Shown in pieces: positions 2,422 through 7,498 of a stretch of 7,498 nt of DNA (positions are counted from its first letter, which is position 1; each line of letters starts with the position of its first letter). This stretch comes from Chloroflexota bacterium (lineage in GTDB: Bacteria; Chloroflexota; Limnocylindria; Limnocylindrales; CSP1-4), in contig JAJYJR010000279.1 in NCBI GenBank assembly GCA_021789355.1, forward strand, positions 1-7,498, read 5' to 3'. Position numbers and translations under genes: made by a program. The notes beneath the pieces were generated by a model that saw nothing but the letters and a program-made list of their open reading frames with translations, had not been told where the DNA came from and did no database searches.

Positions 2422-3099
2422 ATGGGTGGTCCACAGCACGCGCGCTATCCGATCGGCGGCCGGATGTCGGATGTGGTCCTCGGGCTGGCGCTGCGCTTTC
2501 GCCTCACGGCGCTCACGCAGCGCTACAACTCGGTGGCCGTGCTCGGGGCGTTCTCGCTGATCAACGGCTTCCTCTCCATCGGACTGATGGCGGCAGCGGC
2601 GTTCGTGACGGGCCAGCCCTTCATCTTCCCCTCGCTCGGTCCGACGGCGTTCCTGCTCTTCTACACGCCGCAGGCAGCTTCCGCATCGCCCCGCAACACC
2701 GTGCTGGGCCACCTGATCGGGGCGCTGGCCGGCTACCTGTCCCTGGTCGTGTTCGGGCTGCTGCAGGCCGGCCCGGCGCTGGCGACGGGCGTGAGCGGCC
2801 CGCGGATCGGCGCGGCCGCGCTCTCGCTGGGATTGACCGCAGGCTGCATGGTGTGGCTGCGGGTGCCGCACCCTCCGGCCGGCGCCACGACGCTCATCGT
2901 GAGCCTGGGCATCCTCGCGAAGCCCGAACAGCTCGCCGTGCTCATGCTGGCCGTGGTTCTGCTGGTGGTGCAGGGGCTGGTCATCAACCGGCTAGCTGGC
3001 TTGGCCTATCCGCTATGGGCGCCTCGCGCAGAGGAGGCCGTGGCGCATGTGTTGCCGGACGGCGGAGTGAGCGGGGGCAGGACGCTCTCGGGCCGCTGA
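2422..3099 (+). CDS. HPP-family integral membrane protein, candidate nitrite transporter
   Basis: This is a 225-residue membrane protein with the signature that names the HPP family: H150-P151-P152 followed by AGATTLIVSLG. A second conserved block is FPSLGPTAFLLFYTP (69-83) with SPRNTVLGHLIGA (89-101). Hydrophobic segments lie roughly at 38-62, 66-82, 95-115, 129-146 and 171-190. HPP proteins from a chloroplast and a cyanobacterium have been reported to move nitrite. A position 23 bp after narI fits export or import of nitrite made or used by the reductase, but that role here is inference. The ATG at 2422 has GGGAG 12 nt upstream, which is somewhat far. An in-frame ATG at 2464 is an alternative start that loses only 14 hydrophilic residues. 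The gene is probably the last of the nar transcript. Confidence 0.88.
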   Translation: MGGPQHARYPIGGRMSDVVLGLALRFRLTALTQRYNSVAVLGAFSLINGFLSIGLMAAAAFVTGQPFIFPSLGPTAFLLFYTPQAASASPRNTVLGHLIGALAGYLSLVVFGLLQAGPALATGVSGPRIGAAALSLGLTAGCMVWLRVPHPPAGATTLIVSLGILAKPEQLAVLMLAVVLLVVQGLVINRLAGLAYPLWAPRAEEAVAHVLPDGGVSGGRTLSGR

Positions 3100-3238: not shown

Positions 3239-3313
3239 TGGAGCCGCCTCTCGGATTCGAACCGAGGACCTGAGCTTTACGAAAGCCCTGCTCTACCACT
3301 GAGCTAAGGCGGC
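3239..3313 (-). tRNA. tRNA-Thr, anticodon CGT
   Basis: The minus strand folds into a complete cloverleaf of 75 nt including an encoded CCA. It has a 7-bp acceptor stem GCCGCCT/AGGCGGC, a D-arm GCTC/GAGC, and an anticodon stem GGGCT/AGCTC with one G-U pair. The loop is TTCGTAA, giving anticodon CGT, which reads ACG. The variable loop is 5 nt, and the T-arm is CTCGG/CCGAG with the loop TTCGAAT. G1-C72 and C2-G71, with G35 and U36, agree with threonine identity. The discriminator base is T. A TAAACA hexamer on the minus strand (3329-3334) lies about 15 nt before the 5' end and could be a -10 box; I see no convincing -35. The 3' end faces the nar operon. Confidence 0.95.
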
Positions 3314-3897: not shown

Positions 3898-4908
3898 GTG
3901 AAACGGTCGGTGATCGGCTCGGTGACCCTCGATCTCGGCGATGCCATGGAGCGCTACGAGACGTGGGAGCGGCCCACGGTCGTGATCGTCGACGGGCCTT
4001 ACGGCCTGCGCTCCTTCCCCGGCGATCCGCCCACGGTCGAGGAGCTGCCCGAGTGGTACGCGCCCCACGTGGCGGCCTGGTCGAAGGCGGCGCTCCCCGA
4101 GACGTCCCTGTGGTTCTGGGGGACGGAACTCTCCTGGGCGACGGTCCACCCGGTCCTCAGGCTGCACGGCTGGGACTACCGCACCGCCTACGTGTGGGAC
4201 AAGGGCAAGGCGCACATCGCCGGCAACGTCAACAGCCGATCGCTGCGCAAGTTCCCCGTGGTCACCGAGCTGATCGTCCATTACGAGCGGCGGGTGGTCC
4301 TGGCCGCGGGCGACGGTCGCCAGCTCCCGATCAAGGACTGGCTGCGGGCGGAGTGGTCGCGCTCGGGGCTGTCGTTTTCGCAGACCAACGACGCGTGCGG
4401 GGTCGCCAACGCCGCGACCCGCAAGTACTTCACCACCGACTGGCGCTGGTACTTCCCGCCGCCCGAGATGATGGTGCGGCTGGCCGACTACGCCAACCTC
4501 CACGGTGCAGCGACCGGACGCCCGTACTTCAGCCTCGACGGCCAGACGCCTCTGACGGCCGGGGCGTGGGCGAAGATGCGCTCGAAGTGGCACTACGTCC
4601 ACGGCATCACCAACGTGTGGGCCGCGCCGGCGCTCCACGGCTCGGAGCGGCTGCGCAACGGCAACGGCCTGCAGTCGGCGCACATGAATCAGAAGCCGCT
4701 CGCCCTGACCGAGCGGATGATCCTCGCCACCTCCGACCCCGGGGACGTGGTGTGGGAGCCCTTCGGCGGCCTCTGTACGGGCGCGGTAGCCTCCCTACGG
4801 ACGGAGCGCCGCGCGTTCGCGGCCGAGATCCTGCCCGCGTACTATGAGTTGGCTGTGGCTCGCCTGGAGGATGAGGCCCGTGACCGCGAGGATGCCCGAG
4901 CCGGCTGA
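3898..4908 (+). CDS. Beta-class site-specific DNA methyltransferase (N6-adenine or N4-cytosine)
   Basis: This 336-residue protein has the motif order of beta-class amino-methyltransferases (N6_N4_Mtase fold). The catalytic motif IV comes first, as VIVDGPYG (D32-G33-P34-Y35). The AdoMet-binding part comes at the C-terminus: motif X HMNQKP (262-267), motif I EPFGGLCTG (287-295) and an acidic residue E310 in AAEI. Motif IV is normally [D/N/S]PP[Y/F]; here the first Pro is Gly. The middle section, about 144-210 (SFSQTNDACGVANAATRKYF and beyond), resembles a helix-turn-helix-like insert and probably holds target recognition. It would methylate an exocyclic amino group at a specific site and so protect DNA from the overlapping downstream nuclease. 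The GTG start is supported by the promoter spacing. The base specificity and target sequence cannot be read from the sequence. Confidence 0.9.
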   Translation: MKRSVIGSVTLDLGDAMERYETWERPTVVIVDGPYGLRSFPGDPPTVEELPEWYAPHVAAWSKAALPETSLWFWGTELSWATVHPVLRLHGWDYRTAYVWDKGKAHIAGNVNSRSLRKFPVVTELIVHYERRVVLAAGDGRQLPIKDWLRAEWSRSGLSFSQTNDACGVANAATRKYFTTDWRWYFPPPEMMVRLADYANLHGAATGRPYFSLDGQTPLTAGAWAKMRSKWHYVHGITNVWAAPALHGSERLRNGNGLQSAHMNQKPLALTERMILATSDPGDVVWEPFGGLCTGAVASLRTERRAFAAEILPAYYELAVARLEDEARDREDARAG

Positions 4909-5683
4909 GCCGCCGCCCATCCCCACGCCCGTCCCCGTTGAGCCCACCGAACCCCCCGAACTCGTCGAGCTGTGGAAGCGCGTGCGCGGCGCCCTCTTCG
5001 CCCTGCCGGGCCGCTTCCACGTCGCGCTCAACATCAGCGGCGTGCTGATCCCCGACCTGCACACCCTCTCGGCCGCTCTCGGCGCCACGATCGAGGCGCA
5101 GGTGGTGGACACGCTCAACGACGTGCGCACCCTGTGGGACCCGGAGAGCGAGTGGACCGGCTACGAGTTCGTGCGCCAGCCGCAGCGCTTCCCCGACGTG
5201 ATCCTGCGCGCGTCGAACCCGGACGCCCAGCCGTCGATCCTCATGGGCATCGAGCTCAAGGGCTGGTACGCGCTGGCGAAGGAGAAGGAGCCCTCCTTCC
5301 GCTACAAGGTGACGCCCGCGGTGCCCACCCCCTTCGACCTGCTGTGCGTGATGCCCTGGGCGCTCGACAACGTGATCGCCGGCACGCCCCAGCTCTTCGC
5401 GCCGCACGTGGTGGGCGCCCGCTTCGCGGCCGAGTACCGCAACTTCTGGTGGGAACACCTGCGCACCGCGCGCGGCGACCGCACGATCCGCTACTCCGCG
5501 GTCACCCAGTCGTATCCGCAGCGGGACCTGCCGATCGCCGACCAGGCCGTCTCCGACGATGGCTCGAACTTCGGCCGCTACAGCCGCTCGGGCCTCATGG
5601 TCGACTACATCACCCGTCTATTCGACGAACCGCTGTGCGGCGTGCCGCTCGGCAAGTGGCAGGGCTTCCTGGCGCAGTTCTAA
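4880..5683 (+). CDS. PD-(D/E)XK nuclease, probable type II restriction endonuclease
   Basis: This 267-residue product, counted from GTG 4880, has a clear PD-(D/E)XK active site. R103-F-P105-D106 is followed 18 residues later by the hydrophobic strand ILMGIE125-L-K127, so D106, E125 and K127 are the predicted metal-binding and catalytic residues. E72, in a preceding helix, could supply another acidic ligand. After the core come the conserved-looking GWYALAKEKEPSFRYKVTPA and a segment ending PWALDNVIAGTP. The N-terminal 27 residues are Pro/Glu-rich and probably disordered. The gene overlaps the methyltransferase by 29 bp, as expected for a coupled restriction pair. GTG 4880 is chosen because GGAGG lies 9 nt upstream. 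ATG 4844, 4871 and 4892 are in frame but are badly spaced or lack a site. I do not recognise a characterised homologue. Confidence 0.72.
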   Translation: MTARMPEPAEPPPIPTPVPVEPTEPPELVELWKRVRGALFALPGRFHVALNISGVLIPDLHTLSAALGATIEAQVVDTLNDVRTLWDPESEWTGYEFVRQPQRFPDVILRASNPDAQPSILMGIELKGWYALAKEKEPSFRYKVTPAVPTPFDLLCVMPWALDNVIAGTPQLFAPHVVGARFAAEYRNFWWEHLRTARGDRTIRYSAVTQSYPQRDLPIADQAVSDDGSNFGRYSRSGLMVDYITRLFDEPLCGVPLGKWQGFLAQF

Positions 5684-5851
5684 CCCGATTCCGACGGCCG
5701 GAAGGCCCCCGGAGTACCCCTGGGGGCTGTCCCAGCGGCCCGTGCCATCGTGCAGGGAATGAATACCGACATCGCGGCGCTCCTCGGCCTTCCCCCGCTA
5801 CGCTGGACCTCGGTCGACGAGGTACTGGCGGAAATCGCCGAGGCAGCCTGA
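5684..5851 (+). pseudogene. Coding-like open tail after the nuclease stop, or a small ORF
   Basis: The nuclease ends at TAA 5681-5683, yet the same frame stays open to TGA 5849-5851. The second half of that translation looks protein-like: from ATG 5759 it gives 30 residues containing MNTDIAALLGLPPL and SVDEVLAEIAEAA, with mostly G/C third positions. GTG 5750 and ATG 5759 are possible starts, but neither has a properly spaced ribosome binding site. It may be a short remnant of an unrelated gene's 3' end, since such endings occur in NADH or molybdopterin oxidoreductases, though I cannot assign it. It could also be a very small real gene. The nuclease itself looks complete without it. Confidence 0.3.
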
Positions 5852-5912
5852 GCCTTCACGTCCCAGGCCGACCGCAGCCCCATCGCGGCCGCGCCTGCAT
5901 CCCGTCTGGAAT

Positions 5913-5956
5913 CAACGACGCCCGCCCCGGGGAGCGAACCAGGGCGGGCGTCGTTG
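5913..5956. terminator. Strong hairpin, probable bidirectional terminator
   Basis: A perfect 15-bp inverted repeat (5913-5927 with 5942-5956, arm caacgacgcccgccc) flanks a 14-nt loop. It lies 61 bp after the open tail of the nuclease region and 14 nt beyond the minus-strand stop at 5971-5973, so it could end transcripts from both sides. No T-run follows on either strand, so it is not a classic rho-independent terminator. T-poor hairpins of this kind are common at gene ends in GC-rich genomes. Confidence 0.6.
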
Positions 5957-5970
5957 CGTGAGAGATGCGC

Positions 5971-6099
5971 TCAGAGTCGGCGGTCGCGGATGGCGCGGAT
6001 CACGGCCGGCAGGGTCCGCGCCGCGTCAAGCGGCGTCTTGCCCCAGCCGTGACTGGCCCGGAAGGGATCGCCACGACTGGCCACCGCGTCGAAGGCCAG
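5971..6099 (-). pseudogene. 3' remnant of an unidentified gene
   Basis: The minus strand reads 42 codons with strongly G/C-biased third positions, beginning right after an in-frame stop (6100-6102). The peptide starts LAFDAVASRGDPFRASHGWG and ends in an amphipathic helix, TLPAVIRAIRDRRL, before TGA. The stop is followed after 14 nt by the hairpin at 5913-5956, as expected of a genuine gene end. There is no good start codon: an internal GTG at 6084 has no ribosome binding site. Upstream in all three minus frames the translation loses coding character. I read this as the surviving C-terminus of a gene whose front was deleted. The family is not recognised. Confidence 0.35.
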
Positions 6100-6133
6100 T
6101 CAGCAGAGGGGGCGCATGGAGCGGGCGACCGGA

Positions 6134-6149
6134 TCGCCCGATCGGGCGA
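6134..6149. repeat. 16-bp perfect palindrome
   Basis: TCGCCCGATCGGGCGA is its own reverse complement. Partial copies of the same word flank it: GGGCGACC occurs at 6123-6130 and again at 6144-6151. It lies between the minus-strand remnant and the 20-bp tandem repeat, outside any gene I can support. A symmetric protein-binding site or a recombination relic is possible, but there is no direct evidence for either. Confidence 0.7.
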
Positions 6150-6190
6150 CCCCCGACCTTCGGCGGACGGAACCAAAGTCAAGGGACCGG

Positions 6191-6239
6191 CGCGCCGAAG
6201 GTGGGGCGGGCGGGCCGAAGGTGGGGCGGGCGGGCCGAA
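6191..6239. repeat. 20-bp tandem repeat, about 2.5 copies
   Basis: A 20-bp unit, cgggccgaaggtggggcggg, is repeated at 6191-6210 (one mismatch, c for g at the third base) and at 6211-6230. It continues as a 9-bp partial copy to 6239. The unit is G-rich on the + strand and C-rich on the minus strand. It lies in apparently non-coding DNA between the remnant and the small hypothetical gene, and the translations over it are low in complexity. Confidence 0.85.
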
Positions 6240-6332
6240 TCAACGCGGGCAGGGCCGGCGGCCCGGGTGCCGACGGCGGCCACGCCAGCACCACGAGGGT
6301 GGGGTGCCGCGCCTGAGGAAGCCGCAGCCCCG

Positions 6333-6563
6333 TCAGCTGCGGAACAGATCGTCGCCAACCGGCGCGCCGTCGCTCCCGACGACCCGGACCCCGCGCAGAT
6401 CTGGGATCGCATCAAGGACCCACAGGGCGTTGCCGGCATTGATCGCCTGGACGTGGGTCGAGTACGCGGTCGGCAGGATCTGCCAGCGGCCGTGACCACC
6501 GTCTTCGACCGCGACGGCCACGGCCACCCAGAAGGGCGGCTTGCCGCGCTGGCCACTGCTCAT
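6333..6563 (-). CDS. Small hypothetical protein
   Basis: This is a 76-residue protein from ATG 6563 with a very good ribosome binding site: GGGAGGG at 6570-6576, 6 nt before the start. Third positions are strongly G/C, so I consider it a real gene although it is short. The sequence begins polar, then has a hydrophobic strand FWVAVAVAVEDGGHGRWQIL (11-30), a central segment with AINAGNALWVLDAIPDLRGV, and ends GDDLFRS. There are no Cys residues, no clear membrane helix and no signal peptide. The pattern suggests a small alpha/beta fold. An in-frame ATG 45 bp further upstream would add a Gly/Glu-rich stretch but bypasses the ribosome binding site. The family and function are not recognised. Confidence 0.65.
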   Translation of the reverse strand: MSSGQRGKPPFWVAVAVAVEDGGHGRWQILPTAYSTHVQAINAGNALWVLDAIPDLRGVRVVGSDGAPVGDDLFRS

Positions 6564-7006
6564 CGGCGTCCCTCCCTCGGCTGAGTGTCTCCCCGGTTCG
6601 TTGGCCAAGCGTTGGCCGAGATTGTGTCCGGCTTTGCGGCCGACCTCACCTGAGCTGCGGTCCCTCGTCGGATCGGAGCGACCTGGAGCTTGGTCCGCAG
6701 GGGTTCGGCGTCAAGGACGCGGACGACAAGACGGCACTCGGGACGCGCTGGCCGGCGCGAAGGGCGCCGTCTGGGGTCGCCACGTCGTCCGTCACACGTC
6801 GCCCCACGGCGCCAGCCGCGGGACGCCCGATTCGAGCCGCCAGAATCCCGGCCGAATGCCCCTGTGCGCCGTCAGGCGGCCGCGTCAGCTCGTTCAGGGC
6901 CATTTCGGGACGGCAGGTCGGGGGTGGTCGCTCGACGGCCTCTCAGGGGCTCCTGCGCGGTTTCGGGTCTCGCGTCCGACAAACAGAAACGGTCCGCGGT
7001 AATGGC
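6564..7006. other. Intergenic or decayed region, no convincing gene
   Basis: This 443-bp stretch separates two minus-strand small genes. Several frames are open on both strands, but their translations are rich in Arg, Ser and Pro with mixed third positions and no ribosome binding sites. The minus-strand frame at 6646-6903, which starts MALNELTRPP, is the least bad. A short + strand stretch before TGA near 6650 (LAEIVSGFAADLT) looks like a gene end but is only about 18 codons after another stop. Direct TTGGCC repeats lie at 6601-6617. The region looks like gene debris, and I cannot name any source. Confidence 0.5.
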
Positions 7007-7261
7007 TCAGGGCACGCCGATGTGCCTCACGAGGTCCGTAAGCACAGCCACGGCCACGTCCCGGCCCACACCCCGCAGGGCGTCCAGGAGCGCGCCGAGC
7101 TTCCCCTTGCGCTCCGTGTTCGTCTCTTCGGCCAGGCGTGCCTCGAGGACCGCGATCAGCCCGTCGAAGGGATCCTCGCTGGGCCACTGGCCCACCGCCC
7201 GCCGACCCCGTTCACGCAGCCGAACGTCACGCAGGGCGAAGGGCATGGTCTGGCTGCTCAC
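7007..7261 (-). CDS. Hypothetical helical protein
   Basis: The minus strand encodes 84 residues from GTG 7261. Nearly the whole C-terminal two thirds is convincingly coding. An Arg-rich N-terminal part with RDVRLRERGRRAVGQWP is followed by EDPFDGLIAVLEARLAEET and then by two further helices, LGALLDALRGVGRD and VAVAVLTDLVRHIG, ending GVP. The second half looks like a compact all-alpha domain. The start is uncertain. GTG 7261 forms a GTGA overlap with the stop of another open frame; ATG 7246 is an alternative; and the frame stays open up to 7438 with good third positions over the first 50 or so bases beyond 7261. Neither start has a strong ribosome binding site, so the front may have been lost or may lie further upstream. 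The function is not recognised. Confidence 0.5.
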   Translation of the reverse strand: MSSQTMPFALRDVRLRERGRRAVGQWPSEDPFDGLIAVLEARLAEETNTERKGKLGALLDALRGVGRDVAVAVLTDLVRHIGVP

Positions 7262-7446
7262 GTCATCGCCCGAGATGTAGTCCCCGTCCGCCGCTTGATC
7301 GCCTGACCCACACGGGCACGCTGCCGATGGGTCAAGGGCTCCGAGACGGATGCCGCCGATGCGGGCGGCCCGCGGTGAGCGAGCGATTCGTGCGCGACGC
7401 GGGGCCCGGGTACTTGACGAGCGGCTGATCTCGCCCACCGTCGGGC

Positions 7447-7498
7447 ATGGTTCGTGTCCGACGCGCGCACGCCTTCGTGCTCGATCTCAACGACGCAC
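7447..7498 (+). CDS. Possible N-terminus of a TnpB-like protein (IS200/IS605 type), cut by the window edge
   Basis: From ATG 7447 the + strand encodes 17 residues to the end of the window, MVRVRRAHAFVLDLNDA. A short basic start followed by an aromatic-hydrophobic strand and then a DLN/DPT-type turn is the usual opening of TnpB (OrfB) proteins, the RNA-guided nucleases of IS200/IS605 elements. That match is by pattern only and the stretch is very short. A TTGAC, a common type of target-adjacent motif for these elements, lies at 7414-7418, and small hairpins occur at 7352-7373. No strong ribosome binding site is visible. A minus-strand frame is also open across this stretch, so the call is tentative. 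Confidence 0.33.
   Translation, partial: MVRVRRAHAFVLDLNDA

Follow-up and report, generated by a model that had tools for sequence, protein, structure and literature searches.

A probable two-gene type II restriction-modification system of a widespread, unnamed family in a Chloroflexota bacterium

Orthodox type IIP restriction-modification (R-M) systems pair one methyltransferase gene with one PD-(D/E)XK nuclease gene, and the two stand side by side in patchily distributed loci that also occur on plasmids and phages. A 7,498-nucleotide contig of a Chloroflexota bacterium of the CSP1-4 lineage (JAJYJR010000279.1; the whole stretch is called the window here) carries a pair that resembles them in all these respects: M, a beta-class DNA methyltransferase of 336 amino acids (3898..4908, plus strand), and R, a PD-(D/E)XK nuclease of 267 amino acids (4880..5683, plus strand), whose genes are adjacent and overlap. 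Together they very probably constitute a two-gene type II R-M system. Unlike the orthodox systems, R lies outside the Pfam, NCBIfam and PHROG families. The family represented by this pair is widespread and is unnamed in the libraries searched, although the kind of immunity is well known; the novelty lies in the scale of the family, whose nuclease is uncharacterised and whose methyltransferase has an unusual motif IV.

Linkage between the two genes carries much of the argument. A genome scan with R gave 84 confirmed loci, 80 of which were analysed, including Chloroflexi, Proteobacteria, Poribacteria, Acidimicrobiia, Planctomycetes, cyanobacteria and Actinopolymorpha; by record title the R loci cover more than 15 phylum-level groups, with two titled archaea. 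A relative of M lies near R in 78 of the 80, and in the remaining two R either begins 101 bp from a contig end (L048) or is in two pieces (L085). M is also near R in all six viral loci, which include two taken as mycobacteriophages Tortellini and Xavia, the latter with the pair as gp30-31, and an annotated methyltransferase sits directly 5' of R in six of the seven plasmid records opened, out of ten with R. The seventh, from Rossellomorea (L020), lacks M, and its R is split in two, so that both here and in L085 the nuclease has apparently decayed where its partner is missing. The worry, voiced in a preliminary description of this DNA, that nuclease homologues might habitually occur without a methyltransferase is therefore not borne out. 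Of 85 pairs with both genes on one strand, 76 have the R frame open through the M stop codon. In three others the genes are on opposite strands (L092, L093 and L100; two cyanobacteria and one haloarchaeon); in the haloarchaeon M lies downstream and the R match is limited to residues 42-211. Pairwise distances among M proteins correlate with those among R proteins (r 0.73 over 75 pairs, with none of 999 permutations as high; L008 and L021, the same or nearly the same phages as L006, were left out).

Could M instead be a solitary epigenetic or anti-restriction enzyme, with an unrelated repair or recombination nuclease next to it? Two observations weigh against an R-M pair. Common host phylogeny could contribute to the distance correlation, and M does occur without R, in nine of the 12 viral contigs of a scan with M and in one bacterial genome. 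That viral scan found 12 loci with a full-length M relative, R being present in three (the nine without it are L001-L005, L007 and L009-L011); combined with the viral scan for R, it gives 15 contigs with M, six of these with R. The bacterial case comes from an order in which R is patchy: it is present in six of 117 genomes sampled, all six in one family of eight that holds Actinopolymorpha, and all six also have M. One of the two R-less members of the same family (G029) has an M relative (L204:4253-5332) that shares about 54% identity with the window M and stands between neighbours that look unrelated by eye, a thioredoxin-domain-like protein and an IclR-like regulator. M is thus found alone at times, R almost never. 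This asymmetry is to be expected if, as is the established reasoning for R-M systems, a nuclease without its protecting partner kills the cell and a methyltransferase left behind or carried by a phage does no harm or protects, and the viral copies without R suggest solitary protective methyltransferases. With R almost never found away from M and the divergence of the two correlated, a lone M beside an unrelated nuclease is largely refuted by linkage and is very unlikely. In one of the viral contigs without R (L003), a frame after M resembles a phage Dam-type methyltransferase by eye.

Some BREX-, DISARM- or DND-like systems also include DNA methyltransferases and nuclease domains, which raises the question of whether the pair is a fragment of something larger. 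Neighbouring genes were compared up to 6 kb per side in 87 loci plus the window (a set that leaves out L020, L021 and the viral loci L001-L011, L013 and L014). No third gene family recurs: R is counted 88 times, M 86 times and the next non-shadow family, presumably an ABC ATPase by sequence, in five of 88, although many loci are shortened by contig ends and distant partners could be missed. Neither an S subunit nor a helicase/ATPase motor recurs, and the methyltransferase and endonuclease genes are adjacent, as in type II systems. Membership of a larger defence system is extremely unlikely on this evidence. A further alternative keeps the R-M pair but has R nick DNA, or has it act at an asymmetric site that a single M protects incompletely, in which case the system would not be orthodox type IIP. 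One M with one R of ordinary size, and no recurring specificity subunit or second methyltransferase, best fits a palindromic site, and most restriction enzymes that R matches structurally are homodimeric type IIP enzymes. An unorthodox pair of this kind is accordingly improbable, if less so than the other two alternatives.

R carries a short catalytic signature, P105-D106-X18-E125-L-K127 (5192..5260, plus strand, with residue 1 at GTG 4880). The preliminary description had read D106-X18-E125-x-K127 from the sequence exactly so, and P105 precedes it, which completes a typical PD...ExK. P105, D106, E125 and K127 are invariant in 79 aligned sequences, made up of the window R and 78 others that share 38-75% identity with it; 63 locus rows among them had been preselected as uninterrupted copies with the triad. 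The D, E and K are likewise invariant in the window R and 39 homologues collected without a motif filter. Among the genome loci, retrieved with two peptide patterns of which one includes the D and neither includes the E or K, 74 of 80 keep the complete triad, and in five of the six that depart from it the copy is truncated or broken. The alignments had excluded nine copies of R and three of M as broken, some of them falsely, on a stop 5' of the true start, and interruptions were recounted over 91 loci; D is present in 88 of these (one N, two not aligned) and E and K in 89 each. Loss of the triad in relatives, another outcome the preliminary description had watched for, is rare. The block following ELK, GWYaLAKEkEPSFR (5261..5302, plus strand), had been suspected of being family-specific, and W129, L132, E135, P138 and R141 within it prove invariant in the 79 sequences. 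Two further loci are irregular in their R matches. In an Armatimonadetes locus (L090), two M-R pairs are matched in a span of about 6 kb, and the R match of the second pair stops at residue 126; at L101:2475-3952 the R match begins at residue 122, 36 bp past the M match, its N-terminal part seemingly missing.

Sequence libraries say little about R. Among 2206 candidates from a database clustered at 90%, 865 homologues score at E<=1e-3, and the source names of the 120 listed read "hypothetical protein", save one with just a technical tag. Searches of Pfam, NCBIfam and PHROG up to E 1 match R to no family. The earlier statement that R has no characterised relative holds as far as these families go, but it needs qualifying, since a PADLOC type II restriction-enzyme profile (REase_II PDLC03583) matches 77 of the 79 R members over the catalytic core, best at 3.8e-12. 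The window R itself matches PDLC03462 at 4.2e-5 and PDLC03583 weakly, at 4.7e-3. Both profiles model type II restriction enzymes, and what separates R from PDLC03583 is that the match spans just profile positions 40-163 of 319 in the 10 R members inspected. With R named hypothetical and outside the general libraries, common annotation probably misses this frequent defence system, which is found on plasmids, in mycobacteriophages and in many phyla. A family profile built from these alignments would allow it to be counted.

A predicted model of R (predicted local distance difference test, pLDDT, 95.1; predicted template modelling score, pTM, 0.90) points to a restriction-endonuclease-like fold. 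In the model D106 sits directly ahead of strand 107-111 and E125 and K127 lie on strand 120-130, which would place the PD and ExK elements on neighbouring core strands, as in the PD-(D/E)XK superfamily. VIA-align listed 50 rows, of which 47 belong to restriction enzymes or MutH, with middling Z scores; they represent just nine different proteins, mostly EcoRV and HincII. Foldseek gave no significant match to the model. The enzymes aligned by structure, R.SwaI, R.HincII, R.EcoRV and R.NlaIV, belong to the EcoRV side of the fold family, share 6-18% identity with R in these alignments and have no sequence match to it. A placement of R near EcoRV, HincII and SwaI would thus be tentative. Linkage, conservation of the triad and the predicted fold together support the original proposal of an R-M system.

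The other half of the pair is easier to name. M matches PF01555 (E 9e-15; 55.7 bits against a cut-off of 26.7), a PHROG DNA methyltransferase (5e-20) and PADLOC MTase_II (3.4e-20), and at least 5337 of 7999 candidates scored are relatives. The motifs follow the order IV, X, I of the beta class, as first described and now backed by the Pfam match: motif IV is D32-G-P-Y-G36 (3991..4005, plus strand; residues 32-36), and motifs X (H262-M-N-Q-K-P267, HMNQKPL 262-268) and I (D283-V-V-W-E-P-F-G-G291, DVVWEPFGGL 283-292) lie at 4681..4773 on the same strand. H262, Q265, K266, W286, E287, P288, F289 and G291 are present in all 86 M rows aligned. Motif IV in the beta class is usually [DNS]PP[YF], for example DPPY or SPPY. 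The M family, across the same 86 rows, does not conform to this; its form is D-G-[A/P/G]-Y-G, with D in 80 rows (6 gaps), G in 81, Y in 82 and G in 82, and a third position of A (41), P (35) or G (6). As PF01555 is well over its cut-off, DG[A/P/G]YG is read as a variant motif and not as a different kind of enzyme. M shares PF01555 and the IV-X-I order with CcrM and other beta-class N6-adenine methyltransferases, and CcrM (6pbd) is its best solved relative by sequence (E 3.3e-11, residues 239-323). It differs from CcrM-type enzymes in carrying DG[A/P/G]YG in place of DPPY, and the CcrM match covers only the C-terminal part of M. A leading D in motif IV suggests an adenine N6 target, and going by sequence, M probably modifies that position.

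How far do the two proteins depart from described enzymes? R may found an unnamed cross-phylum branch on the EcoRV side, acting at a site cut by no characterised enzyme, alongside an M family in which DPPY is replaced throughout by DG[A/P/G]YG. This is possible but doubtful; were it so, both halves of the system would differ from described enzymes. The recognition site may offer a new tool specificity. The family or pair is unnamed in the titles and abstract openings found, a sample that leaves the subscription literature mostly outside reach. In the portions available of the articles on phages Tortellini and Xavia (PMC5764923, PMC9635641), words starting with methyl or restriction are absent, as are methyltransferase and restriction in those of the article on plasmid pRWAY04 (PMC7276702) and SwaI in those of PMC4081073.

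For enzyme activity, a shared site, the modified base, the position of the cut and regulation, we infer the following course. M would methylate one base in a short site across the host DNA. R, probably as a homodimer in which D106, E125 and K127 hold Mg2+ at each cleavage centre, would cut the same site in incoming unmethylated DNA, and a blunt cut would be in keeping with the EcoRV/HincII/SwaI side of this fold family. With M upstream and the R start inside the end of M, R is probably made after M by translational coupling, an order that would protect the cell while the system becomes established.

The gene boundaries are compatible with such coupling. M starts at GTG 3898 and stops at 4906-4908 (an in-frame GTG at 3910 would give a 332-residue form), and with R starting at GTG 4880 the genes share 29 bp (4880-4908), the overlap originally reported. 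A GGAGG at 4866-4870 (element 4866..4882, plus strand), read directly from the sequence 9 nt 5' of GTG 4880, is probably the ribosome-binding site of R and lies within M. The longest open R frame begins at ATG 4844, and ATG 4892 is a further possible start.

Avoidance of the recognition site in carrier genomes gave only a lead. Pooled over 85 carrier loci (880 kb, no controls), many palindromes are depleted, including CTAG, GGCC, GGCGCC and CAGCTG; pooled depletion of this sort is not specific, since controls are lacking. In three carriers (400 kb each) the observed-to-expected ratio of CTCGAG is 0.55, 0.66 and 0.49, against 0.86 and 0.72 in two R-less relatives (400 and 420 kb), and that of CAGCTG is slightly lower in the same three carriers (0.63, 0.65 and 0.69 against 0.78 and 0.85). 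Several hundred patterns were compared, and CTCGAG, outranked by GTASTAC, CCTCGAGG and about 20 others, was picked for effect size and counts. Whole-genome counts in six carriers and 15 non-carriers put the ratio of CTCGAG to its reversed control GAGCTC at 0.65-0.71 in four carriers, under all 15 non-carriers (at least 0.78), but the two remaining carriers, at 1.22 and 1.26, contradict avoidance; the ratio of CAGCTG to GTCGAC in the six carriers falls inside the range of the 15 non-carriers. With two of six carriers contradicting it and the four low ones perhaps not independent, CTCGAG stands as a weak lead and not a result.

Among the plasmids, pTZC1 of Cutibacterium acnes (L022, 1281-3285) carries an uninterrupted M-R pair with tet(W) nearby, and the pair could aid persistence of that plasmid. 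In the window, the pair is preceded, in order, by the 3' part of narH, narJ, narI, an HPP membrane protein (by Pfam) and tRNA-Thr(CGT) (3239-3313, minus strand). The HPP-family gene (2422-3099) stands immediately 3' of narHJI, and its product, we assume, may relate to nitrate/nitrite transport. G+C is 0.71 ahead of the pair, 0.70 across its two genes and 0.72 beyond; being level along the window, composition gives no sign that the pair is foreign. The roughly 1.8 kb 3' of R (5684-7498) holds no recognisable gene in a comparison of four frames with Pfam, and by eye a G-rich unit of 20 bases appears there in two tandem copies near 6200-6239.
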